40,110 bases of DNA from a bacterium (GTDB taxonomy: Bacteria > Hinthialibacterota > Hinthialibacteria > OLB16), in NCBI GenBank assembly GCA_022072055.1, contig JAJVIK010000008.1, positions 1 to 40,110 on the forward strand, written 5' to 3'. The notes beneath the pieces are model-generated. The model was not told the origin of the DNA. It made no database searches and saw only the letters and a program-made list of their open reading frames with translations. Positions 7,150 through 37,791 of this stretch are shown piece after piece. The translations under genes and the position numbers were made by a program. Position 1 is the first letter of the stretch. Every line of letters starts with the position of its first letter.

Positions 7150-10100
7150 TCACTTCGCGCTCAGACCTTCCACCTCCAGGCTCTCGGCCTCAAGCATGTG
7201 TTCGTCATCCAGCCCCTCGGTCCGCCGCTTGGCGAGACGCAGGATCGCCTTGCGGCCATACAAGCACGCGGCGGCGGGAGTGATGGTGAAATCGAGGATC
7301 GTGCTGGTGGTCAGCCCGCCGGAGATCACGATCGCCACCGGGTAGAGGATCTCCTTGCCGGGTTGCCCCTCGGCGAGCACCAGCGGAACCATCCCCAGAT
7401 TGGTGGTGAGAGCGGTCATGAGCACCGGGACCAGACGCTCCTTGCAGCCGCGCAGGATCATCGCCGGGGTGAACTCCTCGCCCTCATCCCGGATCAAGGT
7501 CACCCAGTGGGTGATCAGCAGGATGCCGTTGCGCGAGGCGATCCCGCACAGCGCCACGAACCCGACCAAGGCCCCCATGTTCAAGGTGGTGCCGGTCACC
7601 AGAAGCGCAATCACCGCCCCGATCACCGCTTGCGGGACATTCATCAACACAATCGCCGCGAGCGCGAACGAGCGGAACTCCGCCGCGAGCAACACCCCCA
7701 TCAGGAGCAGCGCGAAAAGGAACAGCCAGGTCATGGTCCGTCCCGATTCGAGAAGCTGTTCGTATTGTCCTCCCATCACCCAGGCGTAGCCCTCGGGAAA
7801 CTCAACCTGCTCTTCGATCCGAGCCTGGATTTCGTTCACCGCGCTCCCCAGGTCTCGTCCGGCCACATTGCACAAGACAAAGAGCCGCCTGCGCGAGTTT
7901 TCGTGGCTGATCGAGGTGGGTCCCGGGTAGACCGCGATTTCCGCGACCGATTTGAGGGGAATGAGGCCGCCGGAAGGGATCGGAAGGAGCAGGTTGCCTA
8001 TGGTCTCCGGGTTGTCGCGCAGCTTGTCTTCGCCGCGGATGACCAGATCGAAGCTCCGCTCTCCCTCCAGAACCTGGGAGAGAACCTTGCCCTGCAGCGC
8101 GGTTTCCAGGAGCTCCAGGACCTCGCCCTTGCGCAGGCCATGCCTTGAAAGCTCAAAATCGTTCGGCGTGATGCGCAGCTGTGGGATCATCACTTGCGGT
8201 TCGACATAATCATCCACCACGCCCGCGACCTCGCGCATGGCGGAGTGAACCTCGCTCCCAAGGCGTTCGAGGGTCTTCAGGTCCGGCCCGAAGATTTTCA
8301 CGATCACCTGGGAGCGCGCCCCCCCGATGAGGTGACTGATGAGGTGCTGAATCGGCTGCCCGACCTCGGTGATGACCCCGGGAACCTTCGCCAACGCCTC
8401 GCGGAGATCCTCCTGGATTACCCGCAGAGGACGCGGCTCCCGGCCCTCGGGGGTGAGGAGCTCCGCCTCCACATCCGAAACCCCCACGCTGTGGGCATGC
8501 TCATCCCCTTCGGAGCGACCGGAGCGTCTCCCGGTCTTGGAGATGGCCACCTCGGGAACCTGGCGCATGGCGACGGAAACCGCCCGAGAGAGGCGGTTGG
8601 CCTCATCCAGCGCGGTGCCGGGAGGTGTGATCGCCACCACCAGGACCGAGCCTTCGTTGAAATCGGGGAGTAGGTCCATCCCGAGTCGGGTGACTTTCCA
8701 AACCGACCACCCCGCGATGATCCCGCCAAGCGCCAGCACCACCAACGGCAGCCGAACCGAGGTGAGAACCACCGGCTCCACCGCGCGCTTGAGGGTCCGA
8801 ACCACGATGCCATCCTTTCCGGAATCGGGGAGCCTTCCCTTGAGCAGGAAGGAGCACAGCACCGGTGTAAGGGTCAGGGAGACCAGCATCGAAACGAAAA
8901 TGGACACGAGGTACGCCACCCCGATCGGTCCGAAAATGCGCCCGACAATTCCAGGCAGGGCGAAGAGCGGAATGACCACCAGGAGGACAATCACGGTCCC
9001 CAGGGCGATCCCCGCGAAAACCTCGTTGGTGGCGTGCGCGATGAGCGGGAGGAAATGCGCGCGCTCCTCGGGAGGTCTCGCGCGGTTTTCCCGCAATCGT
9101 CGATAGATGTTCTCCGCGCCGACAATCGCGCTATCCACCAGTTCCCCGACCGCCACCGAGATGCCTCCGAGGGTCATTGTGTTGATGGTCATTCCAAACC
9201 ACTGAAAGACCATGAAGGTGGACAGGACCGAGAGCGGAATGGCGGTGAGGATGATCAGGGACATCCGGAGGTTCATCAGGAAGAGCAACAGGATGACAAT
9301 CACCAGGATCGAGCCATCTCGCACCGCCTCGATCACGTTGTCGATGGCGGTGTGGATGAAGCGGGCCTGCTTGTAGACGTCATCATGGAGGGTCACCCCT
9401 TTCGGAAGCGAAGCCTTGATGCCCCGGATGGCTTGATCAAGCCTATCGGTGAGGGCCAGCGTGTTGGCTTCGGGCTGTTTCAGCACGGTGAGAACCACGG
9501 CGTCTTGGTCGTCCAGGCCCGCGGTCCCGCGAGGGATCTTCCGGCCTTCGCGCACCTCGGCGACATCATGCAGGTGAACCGAGCCGTGCGGGCCGGATTT
9601 CACGGTCAGCAGGCCGAGGTCGACGATGTTCGCGGGGCGCCCGATGTTGCGAATCAGGAGCTCGGTTCCCTCGCGCTGGATGAAGCCTCCCGGCGTGTTG
9701 GCGTTGGCCCCGCGCAAGAGGGTTTCTATTTCGGACAGGGTGACTCCATGGCGGGCCATCAGGGCGGGCTTGGCGAGAACCTGATATTCCTTGGCTTCGC
9801 CGCCGATGGTGAAGACTTGAGCGACCCCTTCCACGACCATGAGACGCGGGCGGATGTCCCAATCGGCCAGGGTCCGTAGATCAGCCGCGGACACGCTTCC
9901 GTCCGAGGTGAGCGCCATGCGCAGGACCTCGCCGGTCACGGAGGCGGCGGGAGCCATCACCGGGGTCACCCCCTCCGGGAGCTTCTCCTGGGCGAGTTGC
10001 AGGCGCTCCTGAACGATCTGGCGGCACAGATAGAGGTCGCGCCCCCAATCAAACTCCACGTTGATCATGGCGAAACCGGCCGAGGAGGTGGAGCGCACGC

Positions 10101-10341
10101 GAACCACCCCGGGGGCCCCATTCATGGCCGATTCGATGGGAAAGGTGACCAGGCGTTCGATCTCCTCCGGGGCCATGCCGTGCCCCTCGATCAGGAGGGT
10201 CACATAGGGACGGTTGAAATCAGGAAAGACATCGATGTCCAGTTGACTTGCGGACCACAGCCCGAAGATCGAGAGCAGAACCGCGACGATGACCACATAC
10301 AGGCGGAACTCCAGCGCGAGCGCGACAAGGTGTTTGAGCAT
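7150..10341 (-). CDS. CusA/CzcA-family heavy-metal efflux RND pump
   Basis: This inner-membrane proton-driven exporter (1063 residues) is of the HME-RND type. It has an N-terminal helix (about 12-32), a first periplasmic pore domain, helices 2-6, a second large loop and helices 8-12, as expected for the family. The helix 4 motif GGISVAVGELVDSAIVGAEN holds the conserved acidic residues of the proton relay. The GELVD form is seen in many CusA/CzcA-like pumps and does not settle whether copper, zinc, cobalt or another metal is moved. It is the last gene of the operon, 12 bases after the adaptor gene, with a good ribosome site (AAGGAG). The His-rich partners upstream suggest a divalent or copper-group metal. 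Confidence 0.93.
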   Translation of the reverse strand: MLKHLVALALEFRLYVVIVAVLLSIFGLWSASQLDIDVFPDFNRPYVTLLIEGHGMAPEEIERLVTFPIESAMNGAPGVVRVRSTSSAGFAMINVEFDWGRDLYLCRQIVQERLQLAQEKLPEGVTPVMAPAASVTGEVLRMALTSDGSVSAADLRTLADWDIRPRLMVVEGVAQVFTIGGEAKEYQVLAKPALMARHGVTLSEIETLLRGANANTPGGFIQREGTELLIRNIGRPANIVDLGLLTVKSGPHGSVHLHDVAEVREGRKIPRGTAGLDDQDAVVLTVLKQPEANTLALTDRLDQAIRGIKASLPKGVTLHDDVYKQARFIHTAIDNVIEAVRDGSILVIVILLLFLMNLRMSLIILTAIPLSVLSTFMVFQWFGMTINTMTLGGISVAVGELVDSAIVGAENIYRRLRENRARPPEERAHFLPLIAHATNEVFAGIALGTVIVLLVVIPLFALPGIVGRIFGPIGVAYLVSIFVSMLVSLTLTPVLCSFLLKGRLPDSGKDGIVVRTLKRAVEPVVLTSVRLPLVVLALGGIIAGWSVWKVTRLGMDLLPDFNEGSVLVVAITPPGTALDEANRLSRAVSVAMRQVPEVAISKTGRRSGRSEGDEHAHSVGVSDVEAELLTPEGREPRPLRVIQEDLREALAKVPGVITEVGQPIQHLISHLIGGARSQVIVKIFGPDLKTLERLGSEVHSAMREVAGVVDDYVEPQVMIPQLRITPNDFELSRHGLRKGEVLELLETALQGKVLSQVLEGERSFDLVIRGEDKLRDNPETIGNLLLPIPSGGLIPLKSVAEIAVYPGPTSISHENSRRRLFVLCNVAGRDLGSAVNEIQARIEEQVEFPEGYAWVMGGQYEQLLESGRTMTWLFLFALLLMGVLLAAEFRSFALAAIVLMNVPQAVIGAVIALLVTGTTLNMGALVGFVALCGIASRNGILLITHWVTLIRDEGEEFTPAMILRGCKERLVPVLMTALTTNLGMVPLVLAEGQPGKEILYPVAIVISGGLTTSTILDFTITPAAACLYGRKAILRLAKRRTEGLDDEHMLEAESLEVEGLSAK

Positions 10342-10353
10342 GGCGGAGTCTCC

Positions 10354-12546
10354 TTAGTGCGAGTGACCGTGATCGGCCGCGCCTTCCTTGGGCGCGGAGA
10401 CCGCGAGCAGCAACGCCCGATTCCCCTCCACCACCACCTTGTCGCCGGGGGAAAGCCCCGAAAGGACTTCGGTTCGCGCCAGGGTTTCGAGACCGGTCCG
10501 GACCACCGTGCGATGGAAGTGTTCCCCCTCATCCACGAAGACCACCTTCTCAAAACCATCCGAGAGCACCGCCTTCTTGGGGACATGCAGGACCCCGGAG
10601 CGGCGTTCCAAGGGCACGGCGACCGTGACCGCCATCCCATCGCGGAGCAACTTGCCATCCGGGTTATCCAATTCGATCACCAGGTGAGCCTTGCGGACAT
10701 CCGGGTGGATCGAAGTGTCGAAGTAAACGAAGCGGCCCTCCAAGATCTGGTCCCCCAGCCCGGGGACATGGACCGGGAACGCATCCGCCTTGCGGTTGAC
10801 CACGGCCTTGATCTCGCTTTCGGAAACCTCGACCTCGACATGGACCTTCGAGTAATCCACGAGTTGGAGAAGACGCTGTTCATCGGTAATCGCCTCCTGT
10901 TCGGTGACATCCACGTCCATCAACACGCCGCTTCTGGGACTCTTGAGCACCAGCACGGTCTCGATGGCCGTGGTGTCGCCCTTTCGGAGCCGCTCCAGGG
11001 ATTCCTTGAGGAACCCCCAGGCGAGGAGGTTGGCCTCGGAGAAGAGGGAGTGGTGGACCGCCTCCTCGAGATCAAATTCCGATTGGCGGATGGACGTGCT
11101 GACCTCCGGAGGCAGCACCTTGCGCGCGGACTCGGAGAGGGCCAGGCCGGCCACAAAGGCTTTCAGATCGTCTTCGCTGAAACCCCAGGAAAGCGCCTGG
11201 AGCCTTTTAGCCTCCAGGGTGGCCTCGGCCACCGAGAGCTCGCCCCGCTTGGTTTCGATTTCACGGCGTGAAACCGCCCCCGCGCCGGCCTCCGCGAGGA
11301 GTTCGGTTTCCCGGCGGAGCTTGTCGGCCTCGGCGGCGGCGACCCGGATCTCGCCAAGGAGCTTGGCCACCGCGGCGCGCCCTTCCCCCTCGGCGTAAGT
11401 CTTAAGGTCGGTCACCCGCTCGCGCTCGTGGTAAACGTGCAGAACATCCCGCTGCCATTGAAGCCATTCCGGCACATCCAGGGTGAGGAGGGGGTCTCCC
11501 GACTCCACTCTTTCCCCAGGCCACTTGTGGACCTTGCGGACCACGCCCGGGATGGGGGAATGGATGTCGACTCGGTCCTGGGGCCGCGGGCGGACCCAGC
11601 CGTAGAGATCGAGCGTGACCTGAAGCGCCCCCTCGATCGCGAGTTCCGAGGTGAGTCCGATGGCCTCGCGGATCTTAGGGTCCATCTCGACCGCGTCTTC
11701 CTCGCCGTGCGCGTGCTCCTCAAGGGGGGCCAGCACGATGGCGTCCGCGCCCCGGGTCACCACTCGGTCGCCCTCATAAAGACCGGTTTCAACCCAGACC
11801 TTTCCATCTTCGCGCCTGGCAATTCTGAGTTGTCGTTCCGCGAAGGTCTCTCCCGAGACTTGAACATACGCAATCGATTGACCCTCCTTGGGGACCACCG
11901 CGCTTTCCGGGATCAGGATCGCTCCCTCCTCCTTTCGGACCGGTTCCGTCTTGAATGGGATCTTCCACTGCTGCTCCAACAAGAAGGAGGTTCCTGAAGG
12001 CTCCTCGACTTCGGGCGCCTTGGCGATCTCCTGGTCCGACGAAAACACCGTGATGTCCGGCAGGGGGATCTCCTCGGCCCCATCCTCCGAGGGGATGAGT
12101 ACTGAAACCCGCCATGTTCCCGGGTTCGGGAAAAGCAGGTCGGGGATGTAGATTCCCGGTCGCGTGGGGGCCTTGGCGAGGACCTCAAGCGGTTCGCCCG
12201 AATCCCCGTGCAGGCGGAGGGTTATCGGCCCCTCCCGGCGCGGCTCGGATGTCTTGAGATCCGTGACATGCGTGGTGAAGGGGGAGGGATGCTTCGCCAA
12301 GACAAACGGGTGTTCGATGTACAACCAGTGCCGGATGCCATACACGGTGATCCTGCCGGTCTTGGCTTCCTCCGCGCCATGGTCGTGCGCGTGCCCATGC
12401 TCATGGCCGTGATCATCTTGGACGGGACGCGGCCCGTCTGTGTTACCGCCGCAGCCGGCGGCGATCAGTCCCGCGGCGGCGAGCACGGCGATAAGGGCCG
12501 CGCGCCTCTTGAAATCCCCCGCGAAGGGGGCGCTGAAAGTCTGCAT
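10354..12546 (-). CDS. RND efflux periplasmic adaptor (CusB/CzcB type), long form with duplicated membrane-proximal domain and His-rich segments
   Basis: At 730 residues this is far longer than typical adaptors (about 400). A signal sequence ends in AAGC (Cys32), a probable lipoprotein site. A His-rich stretch (HGHEHGHAHDHG, about 46-57) follows, then an Ig-like CzcB N-terminal domain. Next comes a segment that already looks like the adaptor C-terminal domain (about 211-273: IPESAVVPKEGQSIAYVQV, then LYEGDRVVTRGADAIVLA). A second His patch (HAHG, about 278) precedes the normal adaptor body: barrel-sandwich halves, a coiled hairpin (about 390-480) and the usual C-terminal domain (VPKKAVLSDG, then LSPGDKVVVEGN). 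The tail is HGHSH. The His clusters probably bind or sense the exported metal. It lies 18 bases after the outer-membrane gene. Confidence 0.9.
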   Translation of the reverse strand: MQTFSAPFAGDFKRRAALIAVLAAAGLIAAGCGGNTDGPRPVQDDHGHEHGHAHDHGAEEAKTGRITVYGIRHWLYIEHPFVLAKHPSPFTTHVTDLKTSEPRREGPITLRLHGDSGEPLEVLAKAPTRPGIYIPDLLFPNPGTWRVSVLIPSEDGAEEIPLPDITVFSSDQEIAKAPEVEEPSGTSFLLEQQWKIPFKTEPVRKEEGAILIPESAVVPKEGQSIAYVQVSGETFAERQLRIARREDGKVWVETGLYEGDRVVTRGADAIVLAPLEEHAHGEEDAVEMDPKIREAIGLTSELAIEGALQVTLDLYGWVRPRPQDRVDIHSPIPGVVRKVHKWPGERVESGDPLLTLDVPEWLQWQRDVLHVYHERERVTDLKTYAEGEGRAAVAKLLGEIRVAAAEADKLRRETELLAEAGAGAVSRREIETKRGELSVAEATLEAKRLQALSWGFSEDDLKAFVAGLALSESARKVLPPEVSTSIRQSEFDLEEAVHHSLFSEANLLAWGFLKESLERLRKGDTTAIETVLVLKSPRSGVLMDVDVTEQEAITDEQRLLQLVDYSKVHVEVEVSESEIKAVVNRKADAFPVHVPGLGDQILEGRFVYFDTSIHPDVRKAHLVIELDNPDGKLLRDGMAVTVAVPLERRSGVLHVPKKAVLSDGFEKVVFVDEGEHFHRTVVRTGLETLARTEVLSGLSPGDKVVVEGNRALLLAVSAPKEGAADHGHSH

Positions 12547-12564
12547 GTTGGGTTCCTCTCCGGG

Positions 12565-13908
12565 TCATTGTCCGGTGGTCGCGCCGAGCGCGAGGAGGTA
12601 ATCGATCTCCGCTTCGCGGAGTTCGGAGAGGGCGCGGATGGCGTTACGCTCCTGTTCCACCAAACGCACCTGGGCTTGGAGCAAAAGGCTCCTGTCGGTC
12701 AGGCCCTGATCGAGCGCGGATCTCGCGGTTTCAAGGGACTGGCGGATGCTCGGGGAGATTTCATTCTCATAGATCTCCACCGCTTGACGTCGAATTTCGA
12801 GCTGCGAGGAGGTTCGTTCGAGCTCGGACTCGATCTCGCGCGCGAGGGCGGATTTTTCGGCATGGGCGGTCTGCTGTTCGGCGATGCGCTCCTGGACTCG
12901 GGGACGGCCCGAATTGAAGAGGGGAATCTCAAGTCCGAGGGTGAAGAAGTTTTCGGTGTCATCCCCGGCTTCCTCGCGCTCATAGCCGATCACGGGATTG
13001 GGAATCCGAGCGCGTTCGGCGGCGGCGACCGCGGCTTGGGCGGCCTGTATCCGGAGGCTGGCGGCCTCCAGGTCGGGGCGAGAGGGCTTTCGCGAAGCGG
13101 TGTCCGCCGGAAGCAGGGAGGCGCGAAGGTTCCCCGCCACTTGGGGAAGCCCGGCCTCGGTCAACCCAATCAGGAGGGCCAGGTTCTTACGCGCGTTGGC
13201 GTGCTCCTCTAGAACAAGCAGGTTCGCCGTGCGCGCGCCCGCCACCTCCACCCGTGCGAGCTCGAAGGGAAGCGCGCCGGACAGCCCCCGGTGGTAGGTC
13301 TCGGAGGAATGACGAAGAAAGCCCTCGGCGAGCTCGAGGCCATGCTGTTCAACCCCCGCCAATTCACGAGTCGCAAGGGTGGATACATAAGCCCGCATGA
13401 CCTCGGCCAAGACCGATTGGATTCCACGCGAGAGCTGGGCCTGATCGGCCATCAGCTCCAGACCCGCCGCTTGCCTTTCGAGGCCGAGCGCCCCATTGAT
13501 AGGGAGCTCCTGGCTGATGCGGACCACCGGCCCGGAATGCTCGCCGCTGACCTTCTTGGCCCCGCCCTCAACCACTGGGTTCGGGAGAAGCCCCGTGGCC
13601 AGCGCCCGCATCCGGGTTTCCCCGACTTTGGCGCGCTCCACCGAGAGCTTTGGGCTGCTGCGCAACGCCAGATCAAGTAAACCGGCGAGGTCTACGCCCC
13701 CCGCCGGAACGGTTGAGGCAATCCATGAGGAGCCCGAGGGGACCTCTTCCTCCAAGGGTGGAAGCGGTTCTTCCGCCGATGAAGAGGTTGAGTGTATCTC
13801 GGCGCCGGTCAGCGCGGAGGGGGCCTCGGGGGTTCCCCAGCAGACCCAACCTGAACAACCCATCCCCAGCCAGGCAAGGGTGGAGATGAGGATGCGAGTC
13901 TTGTGCAT
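12565..13908 (-). CDS. TolC-family outer-membrane factor of the metal efflux system (CusC/CzcC type)
   Basis: The 447-residue protein forms the outer-membrane channel with its periplasmic tunnel, completing the tripartite pump with the two genes that follow. A signal sequence (IstLAWLGMGCSGW region, first 25 residues) and a Pro/Ser/Glu-rich linker precede LLDLALRSSPKLSVERAKVGE. That is the characteristic start of the OEP fold, which occurs as two repeats of about 200 residues each. The second repeat opens with RPDLEAASLRIQAAQAAVAAAERARIPNP. The start has AGGGAG upstream. Order channel, adaptor, pump on one strand with gaps of 18 and 12 bases indicates one transcript. Confidence 0.9.
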   Translation of the reverse strand: MHKTRILISTLAWLGMGCSGWVCWGTPEAPSALTGAEIHSTSSSAEEPLPPLEEEVPSGSSWIASTVPAGGVDLAGLLDLALRSSPKLSVERAKVGETRMRALATGLLPNPVVEGGAKKVSGEHSGPVVRISQELPINGALGLERQAAGLELMADQAQLSRGIQSVLAEVMRAYVSTLATRELAGVEQHGLELAEGFLRHSSETYHRGLSGALPFELARVEVAGARTANLLVLEEHANARKNLALLIGLTEAGLPQVAGNLRASLLPADTASRKPSRPDLEAASLRIQAAQAAVAAAERARIPNPVIGYEREEAGDDTENFFTLGLEIPLFNSGRPRVQERIAEQQTAHAEKSALAREIESELERTSSQLEIRRQAVEIYENEISPSIRQSLETARSALDQGLTDRSLLLQAQVRLVEQERNAIRALSELREAEIDYLLALGATTGQ

Positions 13909-21191: not shown

Positions 21192-22673
21192 TTATCGCCC
21201 GAGGGCTTCCTCCACTCGCTCGGTGAGCGTGCGGAGGGCCTTGAGGCGAGCGTGGAGCTTGCAGTTCCCCTCCAGAATCACCCACGGGGCGTAGGTGGTG
21301 CTGGTGCGCTCGAGCATATCCAGTGCGGCCTCTTCGTAGAGCGGCCACTTGGCCCGATTCCTCCAATCCTCTTCGGTGATCTTCCAGCGCTTGTGGGGGA
21401 TTTTCTGGCGTTCCTTGAAGCGCCGGAGCTGCTCCTTGGCGGAGAGGTGAATCCAGAACTTCACGATGATCGTGCCGAAGGAGGAGAGCTGCTCCTCGAA
21501 TTCGTTGATCTCCTGGTAGGCGCGCCACCAGTCCTCCGGGCGGCAGAACCCTTCGACCCTTTCGACCAGGACACGGCCATACCAGCTCCGGTCGAAGATG
21601 CTGATGTGGCCGGCTTTTTGAAGGGGACGCCAGAACCGCCAGAGGAAATGGTGCGCCAGCTCCTCCTGGTTGGGAGCGGCGATGGAGGTGACTTGATACC
21701 CGCGCGGGTCCAGGTTGCCCGTCACTCGGCGGATGTTGCCTCCCTTCCCGGCGGCGTCCCAACCCTCGTAAACCACCACGAGCGGAACCCGACTGCGAAA
21801 TAGGGAGAACTCCAGTTCCCGCATCCGGACCTGCAATTTGGGGAGCTCGGAGTCGTATTCCTTGCGGTCCGCCTGGACGGATAGATCGATCCGGTCGAGG
21901 AGAGTCGGCTTGGGATGGGGAACAAGCGGGATGGGTTTGGGTTTGCGGCGCGCCTGGGCCTTGTGCTCCTCAAGCGCGCGCTCCAGGGCGGCGATGACAG
22001 TCTGAAAAACCTTCACGGTGGCGAACCGTTTGCAGTGCGCCTCGACCACGGTCCACGGGGCGAAATGCGGGGAGCAGCGCTGCAGCATTTCCTCGACACA
22101 CTCGGCATAGCCGCCGTAGTTTCGGACCAGCCGGCGATCCGCCTTGGTCACCTGCCAGGCCTGGGTCGGGTCCTTGGTGATCTTCGAGACCCGTTTGCGC
22201 TGCTCCTTCTCGCTGATATGGAGGAAGAACTTGACCAGGACCGCGCCTGAGTCCGCGAGTTGACGCTCGAACTGGACAATTTCTCGAAACACCTGGGGCA
22301 GTTCGCGCCCGCGCGTGCGTTTGAGAGCACGGTCGACCAACACCTTGCGGTACCAGCTTTGATCGAACAGAGCGATGTGCCCTTGGGCGGGGGTCTTGAT
22401 CCAAAACCGCCAGAGGAATGGGCGCAGGAGCTCCTCCGGAACCGGGTCCTCAACGAGGTGGGTCTGAACCCAGCGCGGATCAAGCCGCTCCACCAGACGC
22501 GAGATCTGCGCGCCCTTGCCGCTGGCTTCCCAGCCCTCGAATACAATGATGGTCGGAATGCCCGCTTGACGGATCCTCTGTTGGAGCTCGGATAGTCGGT
22601 TGCGAAGGGGCGGAAACTCCGCCTCGAATTCCTTCTTGGTCAGTGCGTGGGTGAGGTCCACCTGTTCAAGCAT
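21192..22673 (-). CDS. pap: Polyphosphate:AMP phosphotransferase, double-domain PPK2
   Basis: The 493-residue protein contains two PPK2 domains. Each carries a Walker A (GWEASGKG about 47-54; GWDAAGKG about 300) and a Walker B-like segment (DQSWYRKVLVDR; DRSWYGRVLVERVEGF). Double-domain PPK2 proteins (class II) transfer phosphate from polyphosphate to AMP, giving ADP, and help restore nucleotide charge. Usually one half is the active one. Here the second half has the canonical DRSWYG and the first has DQSWY. The start at ATG 22673 is chosen because GGAGG lies 8 bases upstream; an in-frame TTG five codons earlier is less likely. The YTV-like gene upstream ends with a terminator, so transcription is separate. 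Confidence 0.9.
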   Translation of the reverse strand: MLEQVDLTHALTKKEFEAEFPPLRNRLSELQQRIRQAGIPTIIVFEGWEASGKGAQISRLVERLDPRWVQTHLVEDPVPEELLRPFLWRFWIKTPAQGHIALFDQSWYRKVLVDRALKRTRGRELPQVFREIVQFERQLADSGAVLVKFFLHISEKEQRKRVSKITKDPTQAWQVTKADRRLVRNYGGYAECVEEMLQRCSPHFAPWTVVEAHCKRFATVKVFQTVIAALERALEEHKAQARRKPKPIPLVPHPKPTLLDRIDLSVQADRKEYDSELPKLQVRMRELEFSLFRSRVPLVVVYEGWDAAGKGGNIRRVTGNLDPRGYQVTSIAAPNQEELAHHFLWRFWRPLQKAGHISIFDRSWYGRVLVERVEGFCRPEDWWRAYQEINEFEEQLSSFGTIIVKFWIHLSAKEQLRRFKERQKIPHKRWKITEEDWRNRAKWPLYEEAALDMLERTSTTYAPWVILEGNCKLHARLKALRTLTERVEEALGR

Positions 22674-22748
22674 CCTCAAAGCCTCCAAGTGGAGATGGAC
22701 TGTGAGACCTTGGGCGGGGGTCGGACGGGATGATGACAGGATTCAGGC

Positions 22749-22788
22749 GAAAAGACAAAGGAGCGGAGGCCGCTCGACGCTCCGCTCC
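22749..22788 (-). terminator. Intrinsic terminator of the VPYT-repeat gene
   Basis: On the minus strand GGAGCGGAG (22788-22780) pairs perfectly with CTCCGCTCC (22768-22760) across an 11-base loop. It is followed at once by a T-rich run (TTTGTCTTTT). It lies 28 bases after the stop of the VPYT-repeat gene. Confidence 0.8.
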
Positions 22789-22815: not shown

Positions 22816-24516
22816 TTATTGCTGTTCCGGTCCTCCCGTGGTCCGAATCACGGTCGGCGTGTCCCCCTCGATTGGGGTGAGCACGGTCTCGAGCGGTCCC
22901 GGGGGATTCGCCAGGGCCTTTTGAACTTCCTCTGGGGTGAGCTCGACAATCCTGTGGGAGACCACTTCTGCCTTGGCGGTCTCCTGGGTGTGGCGCGCCA
23001 CGCGGACAAGCGGGCGCCCATCAGGACCGCAGTTCATCGGGCTCCTCCGCTCGATGATCTCCTTGGCCTTGGGGTAGCGGACCAGGACTTTATATTCCAC
23101 GGTCTTCACATCCGGGACCTCGACTTGGTACGGCTCATCCACCTCAAAGGCCACCATCTCGGTGTAGGGAACCCGGACTGAGTAAGGAACCTGAACCTCG
23201 TACGGAACCTTCACCGTGTAGGTCTCCTCAACCTGATAGTTCTCCTCCTCGGTGTATGGAACCTTCACCGTGTAGGGGACTTGCTCCTCATACGGGATGC
23301 GCTCGGTGTAAGGGACCTTGACCGTATACTCCACCGGCTCCTCATAGGATTCGGGAACCTCATAGGGAACGGTGACCGTATACTTCTCCTGATCCGTATA
23401 ATTCACGGTTTCTGTGTAGGGAACATCCACCTCGTAGGGAACCTGGATCTCCTCTTTGACCATGATGGTCTTGGGGACCTTCTCGACATAGGGGACCTCC
23501 ACCTCGTAGGTTTCGGTGTCGGTGTAAGGAACATACACGGTGTTCTCAACCGGTTCTTCATAGGGCACATACTCGGTCTTCCGTTTGGCCACCTTGTAAT
23601 CCACGACCTCGCTGTCCACAAGGGTCTCGGTGTATGGAACCTCGACCTCGAACGGGATCTTAACCTGGTAGGTGACCGGCTCCCAATCGATCACGGTCCG
23701 CGAGTAAGGCTCGCGCAAGCTGACCAATTGCCCTCCCTGACATTCCCGGCTGCATCGGTACGCGGTCACTTCGCGTTCGCGCGGTTCCATCCGGGTCCGC
23801 CGTTCGGTCTTGTACTTGAGCTCGGTCTTGTACTTGGTCACCTCGCGCTCGCGCGGGACCACTCGGCTGGCATCCTCGTAAACGATCTTCTCCTCGGGAC
23901 GGACTCGGGAGACCATCTTGACCTGGGTTTCCGGCCGGACTTTTTCGACTTCGCGCGTGCGGGTCTCGAGCCGGGTCTTCACGACTTCATCGTGTTCAAC
24001 CACCGGCTTTTCGCGCACCTCGGTTCGATAGCGGGTTTCCTTGCGTGTGCGCGGCTCCTCGCGGACCTTCTGGACCGGACGGGTCCGCTCCTCCTCGCGC
24101 GTCTTGGTCACCGTCCGAGTGCGCGGCTCCATCCGGACGCGGGTCTCCTCGCGGACCCGATCCACATCCTTGTGGCGGGTTTCGGTCCGATAACGGGTTT
24201 CTTCGCGCACCTTTTCGACCGGGCGGGTCTTGGTGACAAGGCGGGTGCGCGGCTCCTCGCGCTCGCGGGTCTCGATCTTGTACTTGACCTCTTCGCGGTA
24301 GCGGGTCTCCGGGCGGTATTGGGTGACTTTGCGGGCGGCGGTTTCAATCCGAGTGGTGGGAACCTCACGTGTCCGGGTTTCCTCGCGGGTGGCCCAGATG
24401 ACCTGCTCCGCGGTCTTGATCACCGAACACTCCATGTCCGCCTGCGCGAAAACGGGGGTGATCCATTGAACTGCCAATATAGCGATGAAGGCTGAAACGG
24501 GCCGTGAAAGGGGCAT
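22816..24516 (-). CDS. Exported bipartite repeat protein: Arg/Glu/Thr half followed by a VPYT (YTV-like) half
   Basis: The 566 residues open with a signal peptide (cleavage near VFA-QA, residue 24). Residues 43-253 are an Arg-rich region of alternating charges with repeats such as TRPVEKVREETRYRTETR (98-115) and its variant TRPVQKVREE, then ETRYRTE (146-166). A short linker holds C255 and C259 (RCSRECQGG). Residues 280-480 are a Val-Pro-Tyr-Thr/Glu repeat (VPYTETV, YTVKVPYTE, VPYEVQVPYSVRVPYTE), overall acidic, recurring every 8-16 residues. A C-terminal 85-residue segment with C496 follows. The VPYT half resembles the YTV motif described for secreted planctomycete proteins. No enzyme motif is present, so a structural role in the envelope is likely. 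It has GGAGGT, 6 bases before ATG, its own promoter and its own terminator. Confidence 0.85.
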   Translation of the reverse strand: MPLSRPVSAFIAILAVQWITPVFAQADMECSVIKTAEQVIWATREETRTREVPTTRIETAARKVTQYRPETRYREEVKYKIETREREEPRTRLVTKTRPVEKVREETRYRTETRHKDVDRVREETRVRMEPRTRTVTKTREEERTRPVQKVREEPRTRKETRYRTEVREKPVVEHDEVVKTRLETRTREVEKVRPETQVKMVSRVRPEEKIVYEDASRVVPREREVTKYKTELKYKTERRTRMEPREREVTAYRCSRECQGGQLVSLREPYSRTVIDWEPVTYQVKIPFEVEVPYTETLVDSEVVDYKVAKRKTEYVPYEEPVENTVYVPYTDTETYEVEVPYVEKVPKTIMVKEEIQVPYEVDVPYTETVNYTDQEKYTVTVPYEVPESYEEPVEYTVKVPYTERIPYEEQVPYTVKVPYTEEENYQVEETYTVKVPYEVQVPYSVRVPYTEMVAFEVDEPYQVEVPDVKTVEYKVLVRYPKAKEIIERRSPMNCGPDGRPLVRVARHTQETAKAEVVSHRIVELTPEEVQKALANPPGPLETVLTPIEGDTPTVIRTTGGPEQQ

Positions 24517-24562
24517 TGTAAGACCTCCGAAAATCAGTCAATAACTCTCCCCCCTCGGATAG

Positions 24563-24591
24563 AGTTTAGCCGCGCGCCACGCCCTGGACAA
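24563..24591 (-). promoter_or_regulatory. Promoter of the VPYT-repeat gene
   Basis: On the minus strand TTGTCC (24591-24586) and TAAACT (24568-24563) are 17 bases apart and lie 47 bases before the start codon. Both match consensus at four or five of six positions. Confidence 0.5.
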
Positions 24592-27086: not shown

Positions 27087-27146
27087 GGCCTGGGAGAGTA
27101 GGAGAGGCTGACCCTGTGGGCAACCGGAATGACCCTCAAGTCGTCG

Positions 27147-27176
27147 TTGACAGTTGCTATATCATTGCTTTATCAT
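27147..27176 (+). promoter_or_regulatory. Strong promoter of the DUF3300-like gene
   Basis: A perfect TTGACA (27147-27152) and TATCAT (27171-27176) are separated by 18 A/T-rich bases. They sit about 88 bases before ATG 27264. Confidence 0.65.
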
Positions 27177-27263
27177 GCATATCGCTGTTCATGGCTGTCC
27201 CCTGCCCGAACAGCGCCATCACCTTTCGGGGGTGGCCCAGCTCGCCGAACCGAGGATGCCCCA

Positions 27264-28970
27264 ATGAAGACCCACCTGGTATCGATCCTCTTCTGTCTGC
27301 TTCCCCTCCTTCCCCAACTGTCAGCCGAAGCCCAGCCGGCGGCGCTCCGGGAGCGAATCCAGGCGCGGCTGGAGGAGTCGCCGGCGGCCGAGGCGATTCG
27401 GCGTGAGGTGCTGTCCGGAATCGCCTTCTATCCGGATGAGGTGATTGAAGCCATCTTGGGGGTGGCTCAGGACCCGGAGGCGCTCTTTACCGACCAACCC
27501 TCCTCGAATCCGACCTACCAAGAGGGACTCGCCCTGCTTTCCTCCATGCCGTTGATCCTCTCGGACCTGAAGTCGCATCCGCTGGCCACCGCGCTCTTGG
27601 GACGGATAGCGGCCAAGGATCCGGAAGGGGTGTGGGAAACCATTGATCAGATTCGCGCGGAATACAGGAAGCGAGTGGGCATGGCTGTGAGCGAGGCCGT
27701 GGTGGCCCCACATGCTGCAGCGAATGTGGTCTTTACCCCCACTGAGACCGTCTCGAATTCAGGAACGTCCGCGCCTGCTCCCCCACCCGTGAGTTCGGTG
27801 GTGATCGCTCCGGATGTCACCGTGGTGGAGAACGCAACGCCCACTGGCGGAGTGGTGTACGCGGCCCCTTCTGGGGTGGCCCAGGTTGGGGTCACATACG
27901 TGGAGCCGGGCGCGGCGACTGCTCAGGGTGGCGCGGCCTATGGGACAGTCCAAGGCCAGAACGCATCCGCCGCGGGGTACGGGGTGGCGGTGGCGGGTGA
28001 GAACGCCGCGCATGTCGGCGCCGGCGGGGTGGTGGCGACCGAGGATGGACAGGTCCATGCCGGTAGCGCGGGCGGCACGGTGGTTCAGACTCCGAATGGC
28101 GCCGTGGCAACCGCTCATTCGGGTCAAACTCATGTGGATACCCAGAATCAAACCTTCAACTCCTCCCACACGGCGGGGGCGGTGAACTCACAAGGCCAGG
28201 GGGTGGTGGTCCACCAGGAGGGGAGTGGATCGTATGACTCCGACTCCTTCCAGCGCTCAGGACAGGGGACAGTTCAAGCCGCCAACGGCCAGGGCGCCGA
28301 GTGGTCACACTCCGGGAGTGGACAGAAGACCGAGACAAGCGCCTCGCATCAGTCCTCCACTCATGTGGAGACAAAATCGGGCCAAAGCGCGGACATCGAG
28401 CACAGCGCCTCGGTGGAAAAGACGGACACCGGAGTGGATGTCGAGCATGGGGGCTCGGCGACGACTGGAAGCGGGCAGACCTACGAATGGGGGAATCGGG
28501 AGGATTCGGCGGCCGCAAAATCCTCCTCCCCACAAGATGTCTCGAGCCGCTCGCAGCCGCTTTCGAGGGGACATTCGCCACACAATCAGGGATTCCAACA
28601 GGCGGCCGGGGGCAATCCGCTTGCGGCGATGCAGCAGGATGCATGGAAGGCGATCAATCGAGGGACCCAGGAGATGCAGCGGTCTCTTAAGGGTGCGCAG
28701 ACGCAGTTCGCGCGGAGCGCTGGGAAGATGAAGAGTGCCGAGGCCTTCAGTGCGAAGGGGATGAGTCCAAAAGACCTTTCAACCGCCTTGGACCGTGGGA
28801 TGAAGCAGCAAAAGAAGAGCTTTGGGAGCGCCGAATCGAAGCTCGCCAAGGGGGGACATGGCATGCAAGCGCCGCCGATGGGCGCTCGAGGCGGCGGGAT
28901 GATGCCCCCAACCCCGCGCGGCGGTGGAGGCGCCCGTGGGGGAGGAGGAGGAGGGCGGAGGGGGAGGTGA
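27264..28970 (+). CDS. Exported low-complexity protein with DUF3300-like N-terminus and Gly/Arg tail
   Basis: The 568 residues are counted from ATG 27264, chosen because a clean signal peptide (MKTHLVSILFCLLPLLPQLS, cut near AEA) starts there. A helical domain of about 120 residues includes GIAFYPDEVIEAILGVAQDP (52-71), which resembles the IALYPD motif of DUF3300 proteins. From about 150 to 420 the chain is Gly/Ser/Gln/Thr/Val-rich with irregular repeats (AAYGTVQGQNASAAGYGVAVAG style). A helical basic region follows (about 455-535), and then a Gly-rich tail with RGGGG and RRGR. No enzyme motif is visible. The composition suggests an envelope or extracellular matrix protein. Membership of DUF3300 is tentative. 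Confidence 0.75.
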   Translation: MKTHLVSILFCLLPLLPQLSAEAQPAALRERIQARLEESPAAEAIRREVLSGIAFYPDEVIEAILGVAQDPEALFTDQPSSNPTYQEGLALLSSMPLILSDLKSHPLATALLGRIAAKDPEGVWETIDQIRAEYRKRVGMAVSEAVVAPHAAANVVFTPTETVSNSGTSAPAPPPVSSVVIAPDVTVVENATPTGGVVYAAPSGVAQVGVTYVEPGAATAQGGAAYGTVQGQNASAAGYGVAVAGENAAHVGAGGVVATEDGQVHAGSAGGTVVQTPNGAVATAHSGQTHVDTQNQTFNSSHTAGAVNSQGQGVVVHQEGSGSYDSDSFQRSGQGTVQAANGQGAEWSHSGSGQKTETSASHQSSTHVETKSGQSADIEHSASVEKTDTGVDVEHGGSATTGSGQTYEWGNREDSAAAKSSSPQDVSSRSQPLSRGHSPHNQGFQQAAGGNPLAAMQQDAWKAINRGTQEMQRSLKGAQTQFARSAGKMKSAEAFSAKGMSPKDLSTALDRGMKQQKKSFGSAESKLAKGGHGMQAPPMGARGGGMMPPTPRGGGGARGGGGGGRRGR

Positions 28971-28991: not shown

Positions 28992-30287
28992 TTATTGACC
29001 GATGGTGACGGTACCGCCGAATGCTTCCCAGAAACTTCGAACCGAAATTGGAGGTGTTGAAATTACCCCAGAACTCCCTGGGTGGAACCGGAGGCTTCCG
29101 CCGGAGGCAAGCACCGAGAGCCCCTCTGCGAGTGTGTTGTAAGGAAAGTCTGATGATCCGTCCTCTTCCCCTGCATAATCAAAATCCACCCACACGACCG
29201 CTGACCTATTCAATACTGTAAAGCTGCCGCTTGGGGACCTTCCCACAACCCGCCCTTCAAAATCTCTTATCTCAAAGTAGTAGCTGATTGTACTTCCGAT
29301 CGCACCATTTGGAATGGTCCAAGTGGCTTCGCATGTATCGTCACCCCTAAATGTGTACTTGTCCGTGCGAGCGCCATCTTCGGGATCGCATATCGAGTCT
29401 TGGTCGTGGTCAAATTCACACCAAAAGTAAGGATCCCCGTTGAATCTATTTGTGGCGGGCAGGACTATGGCTTGACCCAGCCCTGGCGATTCTAGATTGA
29501 AGTATCCTCGGTCATTTCTGACGGGGTTATTGTATAGCATCTGCTCCACACCAGCTCGAAGGGTGACAACTTCCCCTCCAACTGGCGCTATAGGGTCTGC
29601 ACTAATACCACTGATGATTCTGGGAATAAGCCCTCCCGGAAAGAGAGCTTCATTTGCAATCGCGACTGCTTCGGCTTCTGCTTCAAATGGTTGGAGATCG
29701 TGGATTTGGCCGAATCCGGGCAGAAACCCGTCTCTAATTGCTATAAGTTGCGCCTCCGGAAGCTCATTGAACCAATTGTATCCATAGCATTCTTCACCCA
29801 TTTCTCGACACTGTATAATGTGGTGGAGCTCATGAAGAAACGTTCGCAGGTATCCTCCAATCAATGGCCGTTGATCTCGAATATAGTCAACCAGTGTGTT
29901 GGAGCAGTTTCCCGTAATGTATTGACAGTTTGCAATATATCCGACACGGGCAGTGAGATCGTTACAGGTTGTACCGAAAAGAACATCTTCCATAGCATCG
30001 CCATACAGAGGCTGGACGTGATACAAATAACTGCTTGGCATGAGGCGGTATGTCACCCCTTGTCTCAGGTCGTGAGTATACCTGTAGTAAAGCTCGAGTA
30101 AGGTGGCCTTTCTTGATTCGCAGGTTATTAACGTGGTCCGACAGGGCTCGACTAATCGGCAGAGATCGCAATTCGGATTTGGTACTTGGTCGCAGCAATC
30201 GCAGGGGATTGTATTCCCGCAGACTCCAGGTGTTATGGCAACTCCGAGACTCATGAGGATAAGGATGAGGCGATTGATAACGTTCAT
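28992..30287 (-). CDS. Exported Cys-rich protein with HExxH metallopeptidase-like motif and beta-helix stub
   Basis: The 431 residues run from ATG 30287, which has GGAG 6 bases upstream; a GTG four codons earlier is less likely. The signal peptide ends near GVCG. A Cys-rich segment follows (eight Cys in residues 23-56, with CDCC). The helix LRTFLHELHHIIQC carries H152-E153-x-x-H156, the zincin metal site, and an acidic stretch EAEAEAVAIANE (202-213) could give the third ligand. Beyond about 220 comes a beta-rich domain with DHDQDSICDPEDG, like a calcium loop. The last 65 residues (VDFDYAGEEDGSSDFPYNTLAEGL and GGTVTIGQ) look like the first coil of a parallel beta-helix that stops. Its DNA is visibly more A/T-rich than its neighbours. 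It lies 40 bases after the upstream gene. Confidence 0.7.
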   Translation of the reverse strand: MNVINRLILILMSLGVAITPGVCGNTIPCDCCDQVPNPNCDLCRLVEPCRTTLITCESRKATLLELYYRYTHDLRQGVTYRLMPSSYLYHVQPLYGDAMEDVLFGTTCNDLTARVGYIANCQYITGNCSNTLVDYIRDQRPLIGGYLRTFLHELHHIIQCREMGEECYGYNWFNELPEAQLIAIRDGFLPGFGQIHDLQPFEAEAEAVAIANEALFPGGLIPRIISGISADPIAPVGGEVVTLRAGVEQMLYNNPVRNDRGYFNLESPGLGQAIVLPATNRFNGDPYFWCEFDHDQDSICDPEDGARTDKYTFRGDDTCEATWTIPNGAIGSTISYYFEIRDFEGRVVGRSPSGSFTVLNRSAVVWVDFDYAGEEDGSSDFPYNTLAEGLSVLASGGSLRFHPGSSGVISTPPISVRSFWEAFGGTVTIGQ

Positions 30288-30327
30288 GGCATTCTCCACC
30301 GGAATCAGGCGATCATTATCATTGGAC

Positions 30328-31887
30328 TCATTGCAACGTCACTAACACCAACACCAACCCCGCTCCTTCGGCAAGTCCGGTCATCGCCTTCCCAATAATC
30401 GCCCCTTGGGCTTTCGCGTGGTCGGTAACCTTCATGGCGTGGCCGGGAGTGTCGCTCGTGGTGAGGAGGTCGCCTGGTTCCACCGCGCCGTTGGAGGCAT
30501 CCACCCAGCAATAAACACGGCCGGTTAGAGCTACAGGGTGTTTACCGTCGGCGAGAGTCCCCGCATGCCCCATGAGCATACCAGGGGCTACCCCTCCTGC
30601 TCCGCTGACAATACCGGCCACCTTCTTGTCGTAGGCGGTCCGAGCTAGACAGAGATGCCCCGGGTTGGCGGAATCTATGGCGACTACCATTCCCGGCTCC
30701 GAGGATTCCTCACAGGACATGTCGAAATTCTCCGAGAAATCCGATCCGCCTGTGATCTGGACCGACTTGGAGGTTACACGGCCGTTGTTTCCATCCATCC
30801 TGATGGAAACGAGCGCGGCGATTTGGTCTGGAGTCAAGTTTGTCGTTGTCGCGGATGGGTAGAGCTTAATTTGACCTCCGCCGCCGGCGGAGATTATCTC
30901 GACACGCTCGTTGCCAACCACGCGGAGCCTTACTGCCCCAGCCGGAGAGGCGTTGATGTCGTCGTGGTTCAGCGTGATGCCAGCCGCTCCACCTCCACCG
31001 TCCAACTGAATACGCGCCTTGTCTCCAAAAGGTACAAGCCGAATCCTTGACTGGGCGCCATCGAGATCGATGGTCGGAGTACTGGCTCCAGTCTTGAAAA
31101 GTGTAATGTTACCGTCGTTTCCGACCCGGAAAGTTTGCCCGAGGATCCTCCCAGTTTCCCCCTCCAAGCTGATCTTTGGGGTGAAGTCGCTGGAAAGACA
31201 CTGGATTCGTCCGATTGAGCCATCGATGTCGACCGTGGGTGTGGTGGCCCCGGCCTTAAAAAGGTTGATGTTCCCTCCAGTCGGGGAGGAGTACATCTGG
31301 AACCTAAGCTGGTTGAACTCAGCCGGGTTCGTTGAACCTGGCGGTGTGTAGCCAATCGTGACCGCTGCCGACCAGGGGGATGCTCTTGATCCGATCATTT
31401 GAAGCAACGGGGCATCTCCTGTGAGAGTCATTGTAGCGTTCATGTTGTGCCCAATACCGGAGGAAACAATCTTTACGGTTTCAACAGGGGCTGTTGCGGT
31501 ATTCAGCTTCGTGAACATGCTTAACCGGGAACGGAACCCGCCGCCACCCGCTGCCCCAAAGGGTTCTGAAATCATGCGAAGCAGATCCTGGACACCAAGG
31601 GTTTGAAGTCTCAATTCTGCCGACTGATTCCCCGACGTTCCTCGAATGATTAGTTCTCGGTCTGAGAAGACCTGTTTTTCGCCATCACCTGTGTTTGGGG
31701 CCTGGTCCGGTGGGATGGAAAGGTCCGCTGGAGGGCTCGCTGGTCCCTTCCAGCTCGCCGCGAGGTCTAGGAGCTCCGGAGCTCCAGTTTGTTGGTCCCC
31801 ATCCACATCCACCGGGGTGGCCGTTCCTGCTCCCCTCCACATGCCCAGGGATAGAACCGCCGCAATGAGAGTATGCTTGAATCGCAT
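30328..31887 (-). CDS. Exported tail-fibre-like repeat protein with dockerin-like loop
   Basis: The 519 residues run from ATG 31887 (GGAGG 9 bases upstream). After the signal peptide comes DVDGDQQTGAPELLDLAASW (27-46), similar to one half of a dockerin or EF-hand loop. The middle contains two similar units of about 55-60 residues: GNINLFKAGATTPTVDIDG with GRIQ, and GNITLFKTGASTPTIDLDG with SRIR. Further beta-rich segments follow. The C-terminal 140 residues (PGMVVAIDSANPGHLCLAR, KKVAGIVSGAGG, PVALTGRVYCWVDAS, PGDLLTTSDTPGHAMKV) resemble a domain found at the ends of phage tail-fibre-like and other secreted repeat proteins. No capsid or tail genes are nearby. A fibre or anchor role is likely. 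It forms an operon with the HExxH gene. Confidence 0.7.
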   Translation of the reverse strand: MRFKHTLIAAVLSLGMWRGAGTATPVDVDGDQQTGAPELLDLAASWKGPASPPADLSIPPDQAPNTGDGEKQVFSDRELIIRGTSGNQSAELRLQTLGVQDLLRMISEPFGAAGGGGFRSRLSMFTKLNTATAPVETVKIVSSGIGHNMNATMTLTGDAPLLQMIGSRASPWSAAVTIGYTPPGSTNPAEFNQLRFQMYSSPTGGNINLFKAGATTPTVDIDGSIGRIQCLSSDFTPKISLEGETGRILGQTFRVGNDGNITLFKTGASTPTIDLDGAQSRIRLVPFGDKARIQLDGGGGAAGITLNHDDINASPAGAVRLRVVGNERVEIISAGGGGQIKLYPSATTTNLTPDQIAALVSIRMDGNNGRVTSKSVQITGGSDFSENFDMSCEESSEPGMVVAIDSANPGHLCLARTAYDKKVAGIVSGAGGVAPGMLMGHAGTLADGKHPVALTGRVYCWVDASNGAVEPGDLLTTSDTPGHAMKVTDHAKAQGAIIGKAMTGLAEGAGLVLVLVTLQ

Positions 31888-32100
31888 CTTCCATTTCCTC
31901 CAATTCTCCAGACACCAGCTTCGATTTCTCTCAAAACCAACCGGACCATCCAGTCCGGACATCGGATTCCGGCAACCGGGACGAGAGGGGAGACCTCCGC
32001 CCCCTAATACCCTCTAATACTCAGGGAGCTGGAGGTTTGTTGGGAAAAAGATGCGGGAAGAGTGAGGAAAAGACGTAAGGCGTGAAAAAGCAGTGGGTTA

Positions 32101-36365: not shown

Positions 36366-37754
36366 CTAGCGCATTGTGGCAACTTTGCCGGCGAGGGTAT
36401 CCAGAACCCTTTCCACCAGGGGAACATACCTGAAATCCAGGATCGAGTCCCAGGTAAACTCAGCTAATACTCTGTCTCTTCCGGCCTTGCCCATTCGCGC
36501 GCGCAGGTCCGCATCATGAATAAGCCGGAGCATCTGCGCCGCAAGCTCACCCGGATCGTTCGGTCGAACCAGGAACCCGGTTTCTCCATCGAGGACACTG
36601 CGCGCGAGTCCCCCTAAGTTGCTCGCGACTACCGGGAGACCCGTGGCCATTCCCTCCAGCGCGGTGATCCCGAACGGCTCGATCCAGATCGAAGGGGCCA
36701 CCACAATGTCCATCTCCCGGTACAGGTCCGCGAGCTCCTCCTGATTCTTCCAGCCCAGATTCCGCAGCCACCCGCGTGTCGCGCGATGGTCCGTCGCGGA
36801 TGTGTAAAGGATTTCAAAGGATGCACCGGCCCGTTCGAGCAGGTCTCCCGCCGCAAGCAGGACCTCGAAGCCCTTGAGCAAATCATCCGCTCTTCCGGGA
36901 AAGAAGATCCGCGCGGGTCCGTTCCGCCGCATGTTGGCGCCCGGATGAAACACGTCGCTGTCCACCCCGGCGGGGATGATTTCGACCTTCGCGCAATACG
37001 GGGCCAGCTTGTCGGCGAGCGTGGAGTTATACACGACCGCCGCGCCGACCCGAGACAGGTTCTCCCGGAGCTGCTCGCGGTAGCCAGGGGTAAACGCAAG
37101 GCTGGAGATGTATTCGTGGGAGTAGTGGAGCTTGGTTTCGTGGCGCTTGGGCGATAGCAACACTTGCGCGGCTCGGCCCCACATCGGCATCCGCCTGAAC
37201 CAGCAGCGCTCGCATTCGGCCGGGTGATCGAGGAAGCCCAGGTCGCAGATCCGGTTCTCATGATAACGGTAATAATGCTGATTGATGCAGAGGAGTTCAT
37301 AAGCATAGAAGCGGAGGATGCAGCGCTCCGGCCCGAGCGCGGTCAGGAGCTGGTTCTTCATCGGACCGCCATCCAGGATCACGATCAAGTCAGGAGCGAA
37401 TTCCTCGATGGCGCGCGAGAAGCGCCGCCGCCCCGTGGGCGCGCTATACGACAGGCGATTGAAGGGAAGCGCGCGGACCTCGAAGGGGAGCTCGCCGCGA
37501 ATCGAGCCACGGGGAAAAAAATCCTGGAAGTCCGGACAAAACAGAGCGACCCGCGCTCCGCGCGCTTGGAGTCCATGAATCACCTGGAAGCCATCGATCC
37601 AACTCCCGCCCTTGGGCGGCCAGTGGAATAGAAGGTCCACAAAGGCGATTCGAGGGGAAGAGGACAGCCGCCGCACCAAGCCTGCTCCAGGATGAAGGTC
37701 CGAGCGATGGTACACTCCCCGCCGGAAACCGTAAGGGGAGCGCCGAGATTTCAT
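36366..37754 (-). CDS. GT4-family glycosyltransferase
   Basis: The protein has 462 residues from ATG 37754. The C-terminal half has the GT-B donor-binding signature: VEIIPAGVDSDVFHPG, ARIFFPGRADDLLKGFEVLLAA, ATRGWLRNLGWKNQEELADLY, and IEPFGITALEGMATGLPVVASNLGGL. The N-terminal half is the acceptor domain. It has an unusual Cys/His patch (LLCINQHYYRYHENRICDLGFLDHPAECERCW, in parts) that could bind a metal. The start is not certain: there is no strong ribosome site at 37754, and an internal GTG near the SSSPRIAFVDLLFHW segment is possible. It precedes the sulfatase by 13 bases and is divergent from the glycosidase-like gene. Confidence 0.85.
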   Translation of the reverse strand: MKSRRSPYGFRRGVYHRSDLHPGAGLVRRLSSSPRIAFVDLLFHWPPKGGSWIDGFQVIHGLQARGARVALFCPDFQDFFPRGSIRGELPFEVRALPFNRLSYSAPTGRRRFSRAIEEFAPDLIVILDGGPMKNQLLTALGPERCILRFYAYELLCINQHYYRYHENRICDLGFLDHPAECERCWFRRMPMWGRAAQVLLSPKRHETKLHYSHEYISSLAFTPGYREQLRENLSRVGAAVVYNSTLADKLAPYCAKVEIIPAGVDSDVFHPGANMRRNGPARIFFPGRADDLLKGFEVLLAAGDLLERAGASFEILYTSATDHRATRGWLRNLGWKNQEELADLYREMDIVVAPSIWIEPFGITALEGMATGLPVVASNLGGLARSVLDGETGFLVRPNDPGELAAQMLRLIHDADLRARMGKAGRDRVLAEFTWDSILDFRYVPLVERVLDTLAGKVATMR

Positions 37755-37791
37755 GATTCCCAAGCCCCGCGCGCGCGGTTACAGTTCCCTC

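Follow-up and report, generated by a model that had tools for sequence, protein, structure and literature searches.

The window (the whole stretch of 40,110 nucleotides that was analysed) harbors a gene whose product joins two repeat arrays of different charge, a basic Arg/Glu/Thr array and an acidic VPYT array. This raises the question of what kind of protein it is and whether its two halves interact with each other. The first-pass annotation had already recognised the two arrays, and the repeat analysis confirmed them in one protein, with extents of 43–254 and 275–490. The features of the locus are as follows:

22816..24516, reverse strand: coding sequence of the two-array repeat protein, 566 aa (ORF list; codon constraint relative to the homologs; homologs in three genera)

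24439..24516, reverse strand: predicted signal peptide, residues 1–26 (MPLSRPVSAFIAILAVQWITPVFAQA), with cleavage at about A26 (read from the sequence)

24427..24429, reverse strand: Cys30, invariant (found in each of the three homologs) and placed where the proposed hairpin is open

23755..24390, reverse strand: basic Arg/Glu/Thr hexad array, residues 43–254 (repeat analysis, homolog comparison)

23695..23754, reverse strand: linker, residues 255–274, with Cys255 and the invariant Cys259; proposed turn at 261/262 (AlphaFold2 model, homolog comparison)

23047..23694, reverse strand: acidic VPYT hexad array, residues 275–490 (repeat analysis, homolog comparison)

22819..23046, reverse strand: C-terminal tail, residues 491–566, in which Cys496 is invariant and a short helix motif (LTPEE) is conserved (alignment, AlphaFold2 model)

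24524..24528, reverse strand: ribosome-binding site GGAGG, 7 bases before the ATG (read from the sequence)

24563..24591, reverse strand: weak promoter candidate TTGTCC-17-TAAACT, with 8/12 consensus positions, below the scan threshold (read from the sequence)

22750..22788, reverse strand: intrinsic terminator, formed by the stem GGAGCGGAG, an 11-base loop and CTCCGCTCC, followed by TTTGTCTTTT (read from the sequence)

The ORF starts with ATG, its frame is coding (GC content of the three codon positions of 0.64/0.40/0.77, respectively) and the pN/pS values between the homologs range from 0.3 to 0.6, of which only the direction is meaningful, the synonymous sites being near saturation. An antisense ORF of 404 aa (23281–24495, forward strand) was taken as a by-product of the repeat codons. 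The inspection of the alignment revealed that all the homologs open with a hydrophobic stretch ending near AQ/GQ, and the protein is predicted to be exported on the basis of this signal-peptide inspection.

The gene stands alone. Since its upstream neighbor, an MgsA-type AAA ATPase gene, is divergent, the 300-bp gap between the two genes must contain the promoter of the repeat gene. A dedicated promoter had been proposed, but the sigma-70 scan upstream of the gene did not retrieve any reaching the threshold, and only the sub-threshold candidate listed above was read by eye. The terminator was judged by eye to be real, with a G+C stem of 9 bp and a T-rich tract after it, its fold z-score being only −1.4. 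The downstream neighbor, on the same strand, is a two-domain PPK2 gene (21192–22688, reverse strand) with two PPK2 stretches in a single chain. The copies of the two relatives have other flanking genes, and thus the neighborhood gives no function for the repeat gene. Elsewhere in the window, an RND-type efflux set spans positions 7150–13908 and includes a membrane fusion protein of 730 aa (10354–12546, reverse strand), whose best match with the HlyD barrel-sandwich domain lies at residues 503–638, leaving a long N-terminal part unexplained by the match. Moreover, four long ORFs (27129–28970 and 37753–39687 on the forward strand, 28992–30299 and 30328–31962 on the reverse strand) gave no Pfam match at E ≤ 1e-5.

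The relatives of the repeat protein were retrieved by searching the genome collection with a three-row alignment; the same scan performed with the single sequence did not retrieve any. Homologs are present in all the genomes of the taxonomic family examined (3/3, belonging to three genera, with an identity of 48–63%), the two relatives being Candidatus Hinthialibacteria OLB16 and a genome labelled Omnitrophota. The protein is absent from all 11 other genomes of the phylum (Candidatus Hinthialibacterota) that were searched. Hence, the conservation previously suggested holds within the family but does not extend beyond it (0/11). No relative was found in the viral contigs searched. Matches outside the phylum were discarded: an 86-aa frame (locus L013) does not contain such repeats on reading, the frames of L012, L015, and L016 contain stops, that of L014 is a low-complexity stretch antisense to a transporter, and those on Lactococcus plasmids run antisense to an annotated gene. 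None of the relatives has one array without the other (3/3 family genomes, three genera), so the protein is not a chimera, a possibility that the first-pass annotation had raised.

The alignment of the three proteins has zero gap columns over residues 27–497; thus, array length is fixed, unlike that of freely expanding repeats. Three Cys residues (Cys30, Cys259, and Cys496) are invariant and bracket the arrays, with spacings of 229 and 237 residues. The CxxxC pair ascribed to the linker does exist in the window protein (C255-SRE-C259), but it is not strictly conserved: C259 is invariant, while C255 occurs in only two homologs out of three.

Both arrays consist of strict hexads, with an autocorrelation of 0.29–0.37 at lags 6, 12, 18, 24, and 30 versus 0.04–0.19 elsewhere. 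The unit is roughly [E/V]-[T/P]-[R/K]-[T/Y/V]-[R/K]-[E/P/T] in the basic array (65 K/R and 46 D/E) and V-P-Y-[T/E]-[V/E]-x in the acidic one (20 K/R and 47 D/E). This shared period of six residues, the nearly equal length of the two arrays (about 36 units each) and the three bracketing Cys had escaped the first-pass annotation. All 16 [V/I]P[Y/F/D] motifs share one phase of six, and the VPY motifs of the VPYT array keep the same phase in the three homologs. The strand-like alternation already noticed in the sequence is real: in both arrays, alternate residues fall on two faces, in the fashion of a beta strand. K/R and D/E make up 58% and 22%, respectively, of one face of the Arg array, while the opposite one has 3% K/R; V/I/Y/F/L/M/W account for 70% of one face of the VPYT array. 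The charge segregation exceeds that of 500/500 shuffles in two homologs and of 490/500 in the window copy. Furthermore, the A+G content of the repeat protein is 1.4–1.9%, and the window protein has only four Cys in 566 residues.

If the two arrays pair with each other, opposite charges should face at one value of i+j. A total of 180 antiparallel registers were scored, with shuffles preserving hexad-column composition as the null. Registers 525 and 523 ranked first and second (z 4.3 and 4.1, respectively, with a family-wise 95% limit of the null maximum of 3.3), the best parallel register having a z of 3.3. The even registers, which would put side chains on opposite faces, stay low (z −0.3 for 522, −1.3 for 524, and 0.5 for 526). 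The combination of 523 and 525 gave a z of 5.7, reached by none of 1000 null maxima. These data support, at the level of a specific register, the electrostatic association of the halves that had been put forward as a possibility. Register 523 keeps its first rank if each shuffle stays inside one hexad column of a block of 24–120 residues, and it ranks first in homologs G000 and G002 taken singly; in the third one (G001), 525 has to share its rank with another register and 523 does not rise. When the nulls preserve parity only, the three homologs together give 503 as the top single register, above 523/525, while 525+527 is still the top pair of neighbors (family-wise p 0.004–0.04). A cruder, local parity-only null applied to the single window sequence gave no significant register.

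Structure prediction had been suggested as a check. The AlphaFold2 model built on the three sequences has strands at residues 30–101, 172–260, 263–351, and 422–494, which are mirror images about residue 261.5 (the pairing being read from the strand borders only), with pLDDT values mostly of 70–84 around the turn and at the free ends. Nevertheless, the model is poor overall (pTM 0.24, mean pLDDT 57, the other four models scoring lower), with low confidence in the middle of both arrays. When the Arg half is folded alone, the mirrored confident strands are lost and residues 195–262 drop to a pLDDT of about 37–45. The strand symmetry of the model is expected of a chain that folds back once over its whole length, and it would put C30 beside C496. 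The charge test picks the same register (i+j = 523/525) as this symmetry; AlphaFold2 may know charge rules, so that the two tests are not fully independent of each other. A PDB fold search with the model retrieved no match at E ≤ 0.001. A viral fold search retrieved three matches at E ≤ 0.001, which were set aside as extended-strand geometry (TM-scores 0.07–0.12, rmsd 37–65).

The VPYT half had been likened to the planctomycete YTV motif, and the comparison supports this likeness, the two-array architecture being common to both. YTV proteins (Pfam PF07639) are major wall constituents in Gemmata obscuriglobus (PMC5287468), and a YTV domain gene is present in Planctopirus limnophila (PMC10632474); they are described as cysteine-rich (PMC8567305), and their genes as confined to planctomycetes (PMC8567305, PMC10632474). 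Profile searches in further genomes yielded 17 two-array YTV proteins (their loci being among L017, L025, L026, L030, L034, and L040–L063), called planctomycete from their YTV genes and the published range of the YTV domain, and forming 12 clusters at 60% identity. In all 17, the second part is the more positive one; the Hinthialibacterota proteins show the opposite order. Neither the two-array organization of the YTV proteins nor this reversal had been noted in the first-pass annotation.

The same register test was extended to these proteins, with linkers set by an automatic rule. The top antiparallel register lies within 17 residues of the linker mirror in 16/17 of them. The width of 17 was picked after the offsets were seen, and the test is not fully blind, as four of the proteins were examined before the rule existed. 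Fifteen out of 17 pass a family-wise p < 0.05. With a second null, 16/18 proteins (window included) are near the linker mirror versus 5/18 for parallel registers. Several of the planctomycete proteins (e.g., L040 and L043) also have significant parallel registers, and repeat effects are not fully removed.

The window protein resembles the YTV proteins in several respects: (predicted) export, VPY/YTV and TRxR-type motifs, a linker that separates two arrays, halves that differ in charge, and a strongest antiparallel charge register centered on the linker. It differs from them in its period (6 versus 14, 16 or 28), in having the basic array first instead of second, and in its Cys content (4 versus 29–72). 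Moreover, its best stretch scores 20.4 bits with the Pfam YTV profile, just below the cut-off of 21, and hmmscan gave no YTV match for it. Two homologs reach the cut-off in a six-frame search (21.2 bits, and 27.6 with neighbors); in hmmscan, one of them scores 16.7 bits and the other has no YTV match. BLAST pairs the VPYT half with the first of the two arrays of L026, and the Arg half with the second; the VPYT half scores 57.0 bits against L026, with a maximum of 47.0 for hexad-column shuffles, the other seven comparisons falling within or near the shuffle range. The hhalign probability against YTV is 96% over 36 columns. Since sequences shuffled within hexad columns match the YTV proteins almost as well as the real ones, residue-level homology is not separable from a shared hexad grammar; it is this grammar that is demonstrated, and common descent from planctomycete YTV is not claimed. 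The protein departs from the Pfam YTV family in score, cysteine content and period, so its membership of that family is not established, and it shares with it the YTV-type architecture, i.e., two charge-distinct arrays, a linker, and an antiparallel register at the linker mirror.

The YTV profile search also retrieved a second, predicted exported protein of 221–240 aa from the same three family genomes, which had previously been overlooked. It has the same layout, with a basic TR-rich half followed by a VPY-rich acidic half, and harbors 20–26 Cys. In the genome of the window, it is located as follows:

Contig C10, 29569–30231 (locus L037, 5570–6235), forward strand: Cys-rich paralog, 221 aa (YTV profile search)

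The name paralog is used here for the common layout and the weak match between the profiles (hhalign 79%), and is not meant as proof of common descent. It accompanies the window gene in 3/3 family genomes, on a different contig, and is absent from the other genomes of the phylum (11/11). Its two best charge registers (294 and 292) are at the linker mirror (292) but under the limit (z 2.7).

Similar low-complexity, beta-type repeats of V, P and charged residues occur in the articulins, plateins and alveolins (epiplastins) of protists and in Caulobacter articulin-like proteins (PMC6212826, PMC4303705). Their period of 12 is a multiple of 6, they have almost no Ala/Gly and a membrane-skeleton type of design, and plateins carry signal peptides, as predicted for the window protein. 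Articulins/epiplastins are defined by more than three VPV modules, a V+I content of about 33%, and acid-base dyads (PMC6212826). The window protein does not fit this definition: it has no VPV module (0), its arrays contain 14.2% and 24.5% V+I versus 33%, and its dyads (27 and 6 versus 28 and 9 expected) are at chance level; furthermore, its Thr content is high and its charge is segregated into halves. The Bacillus EntB/EntC cell-wall-binding proteins (NCBIfam NF040676 and NF040677) share with it a charged low-complexity region, matching the basic array weakly (32.8 and 22.9 bits, far under the cut-offs of 780 and 770 bits, respectively), and kinship with them was rejected in favor of shared composition.

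The two-array anatomy, the fixed length, the conserved Cys, the association with the paralog throughout the family and a charge register that exceeds chance are directly supported; from here on we infer the fold, disulfides, assembly, location and function of the repeat protein. We lean, with modest confidence, towards an exported structural envelope protein whose arrays form an antiparallel, charge-zipped hairpin ribbon and which acts like the YTV wall proteins. In each chain, either array would comprise about 36 beta units of six residues and have a face that is charged and rich in Arg in one array, acidic and rich in Tyr/Val in the other. The chain would fold back at the central Cys-containing linker, so that the antiparallel arrays make up a single, very long ribbon of two strands, which salt bridges would hold at a fixed register (i+j of about 523–525). 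C259 in the linker and, at the free ends, C30 and C496, which this register brings together, could form disulfides that lock the ribbons, either inside one chain or from chain to chain. Together with the shorter Cys-rich paralog, the ribbons might then build up a wall sheet or mesh by stacking via their Tyr/Val and charged faces. The reversal of array order between the phyla would be harmless for such a ribbon, since moving the turn to its other end leaves the pairing as it is. The register of the hairpin would also be that of a domain-swapped dimer.

Alternatively, the Arg array might pair with the VPYT array of the next chain in a staggered manner, giving an end-to-end or lateral fibre. The hexad repeats offer many near-equivalent registers, 503 among them, and three conserved single Cys would suit chain-to-chain disulfides; free stagger, however, does not favor the linker-set 523/525, which came out on top, and a linker-centered register recurs in the planctomycete YTV proteins, so that we regard such a fibre as unlikely. 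Still less probable is a disordered polyampholyte, in which the unfolded arrays would lie between wall layers as a charged, sticky gel or spacer: low complexity, high charge and the low AlphaFold2 confidence in mid-array would suit it, but it has no need for strict conservation of phase and length, for purifying selection, or for a specific charge register. A left-handed beta-helix or another solenoid of hexapeptide turns, suggested by a period of six with multiples of 18, is very improbable given the near-absence of Gly/Ala, the lack of a Pfam hexapeptide match, the long extended strands of the AlphaFold2 model and the lack of a PDB fold match.

Returning to the charge-zipped ribbon, the loss of peptidoglycan was considered as a reason for a protein wall and rejected because all 14 genomes of the phylum, that of the window included, harbor Mur ligases; the proposed layer would thus add to peptidoglycan rather than replace it. 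In a wider and more tentative perspective, to which we give somewhat less than even weight, the YTV-type wall proteins of Planctomycetota and Hinthialibacterota could all be giant antiparallel beta hairpins, charge-zipped residue by residue and closed by disulfides; either array order would be possible, since both yield the same zipped ribbon.

The charge register turns a vague wall repeat protein into a specific prediction of which residues face each other. We found no fold of the planctomycete YTV wall proteins in the literature, and the charge zip gives them a testable structure. A two-array protein from another candidate phylum, with few Cys and a strict hexad, represents a simpler model of the same design. 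If the charge zip is true for the whole YTV class, it would represent a structural principle for bacterial protein walls that is, to our knowledge, undescribed.
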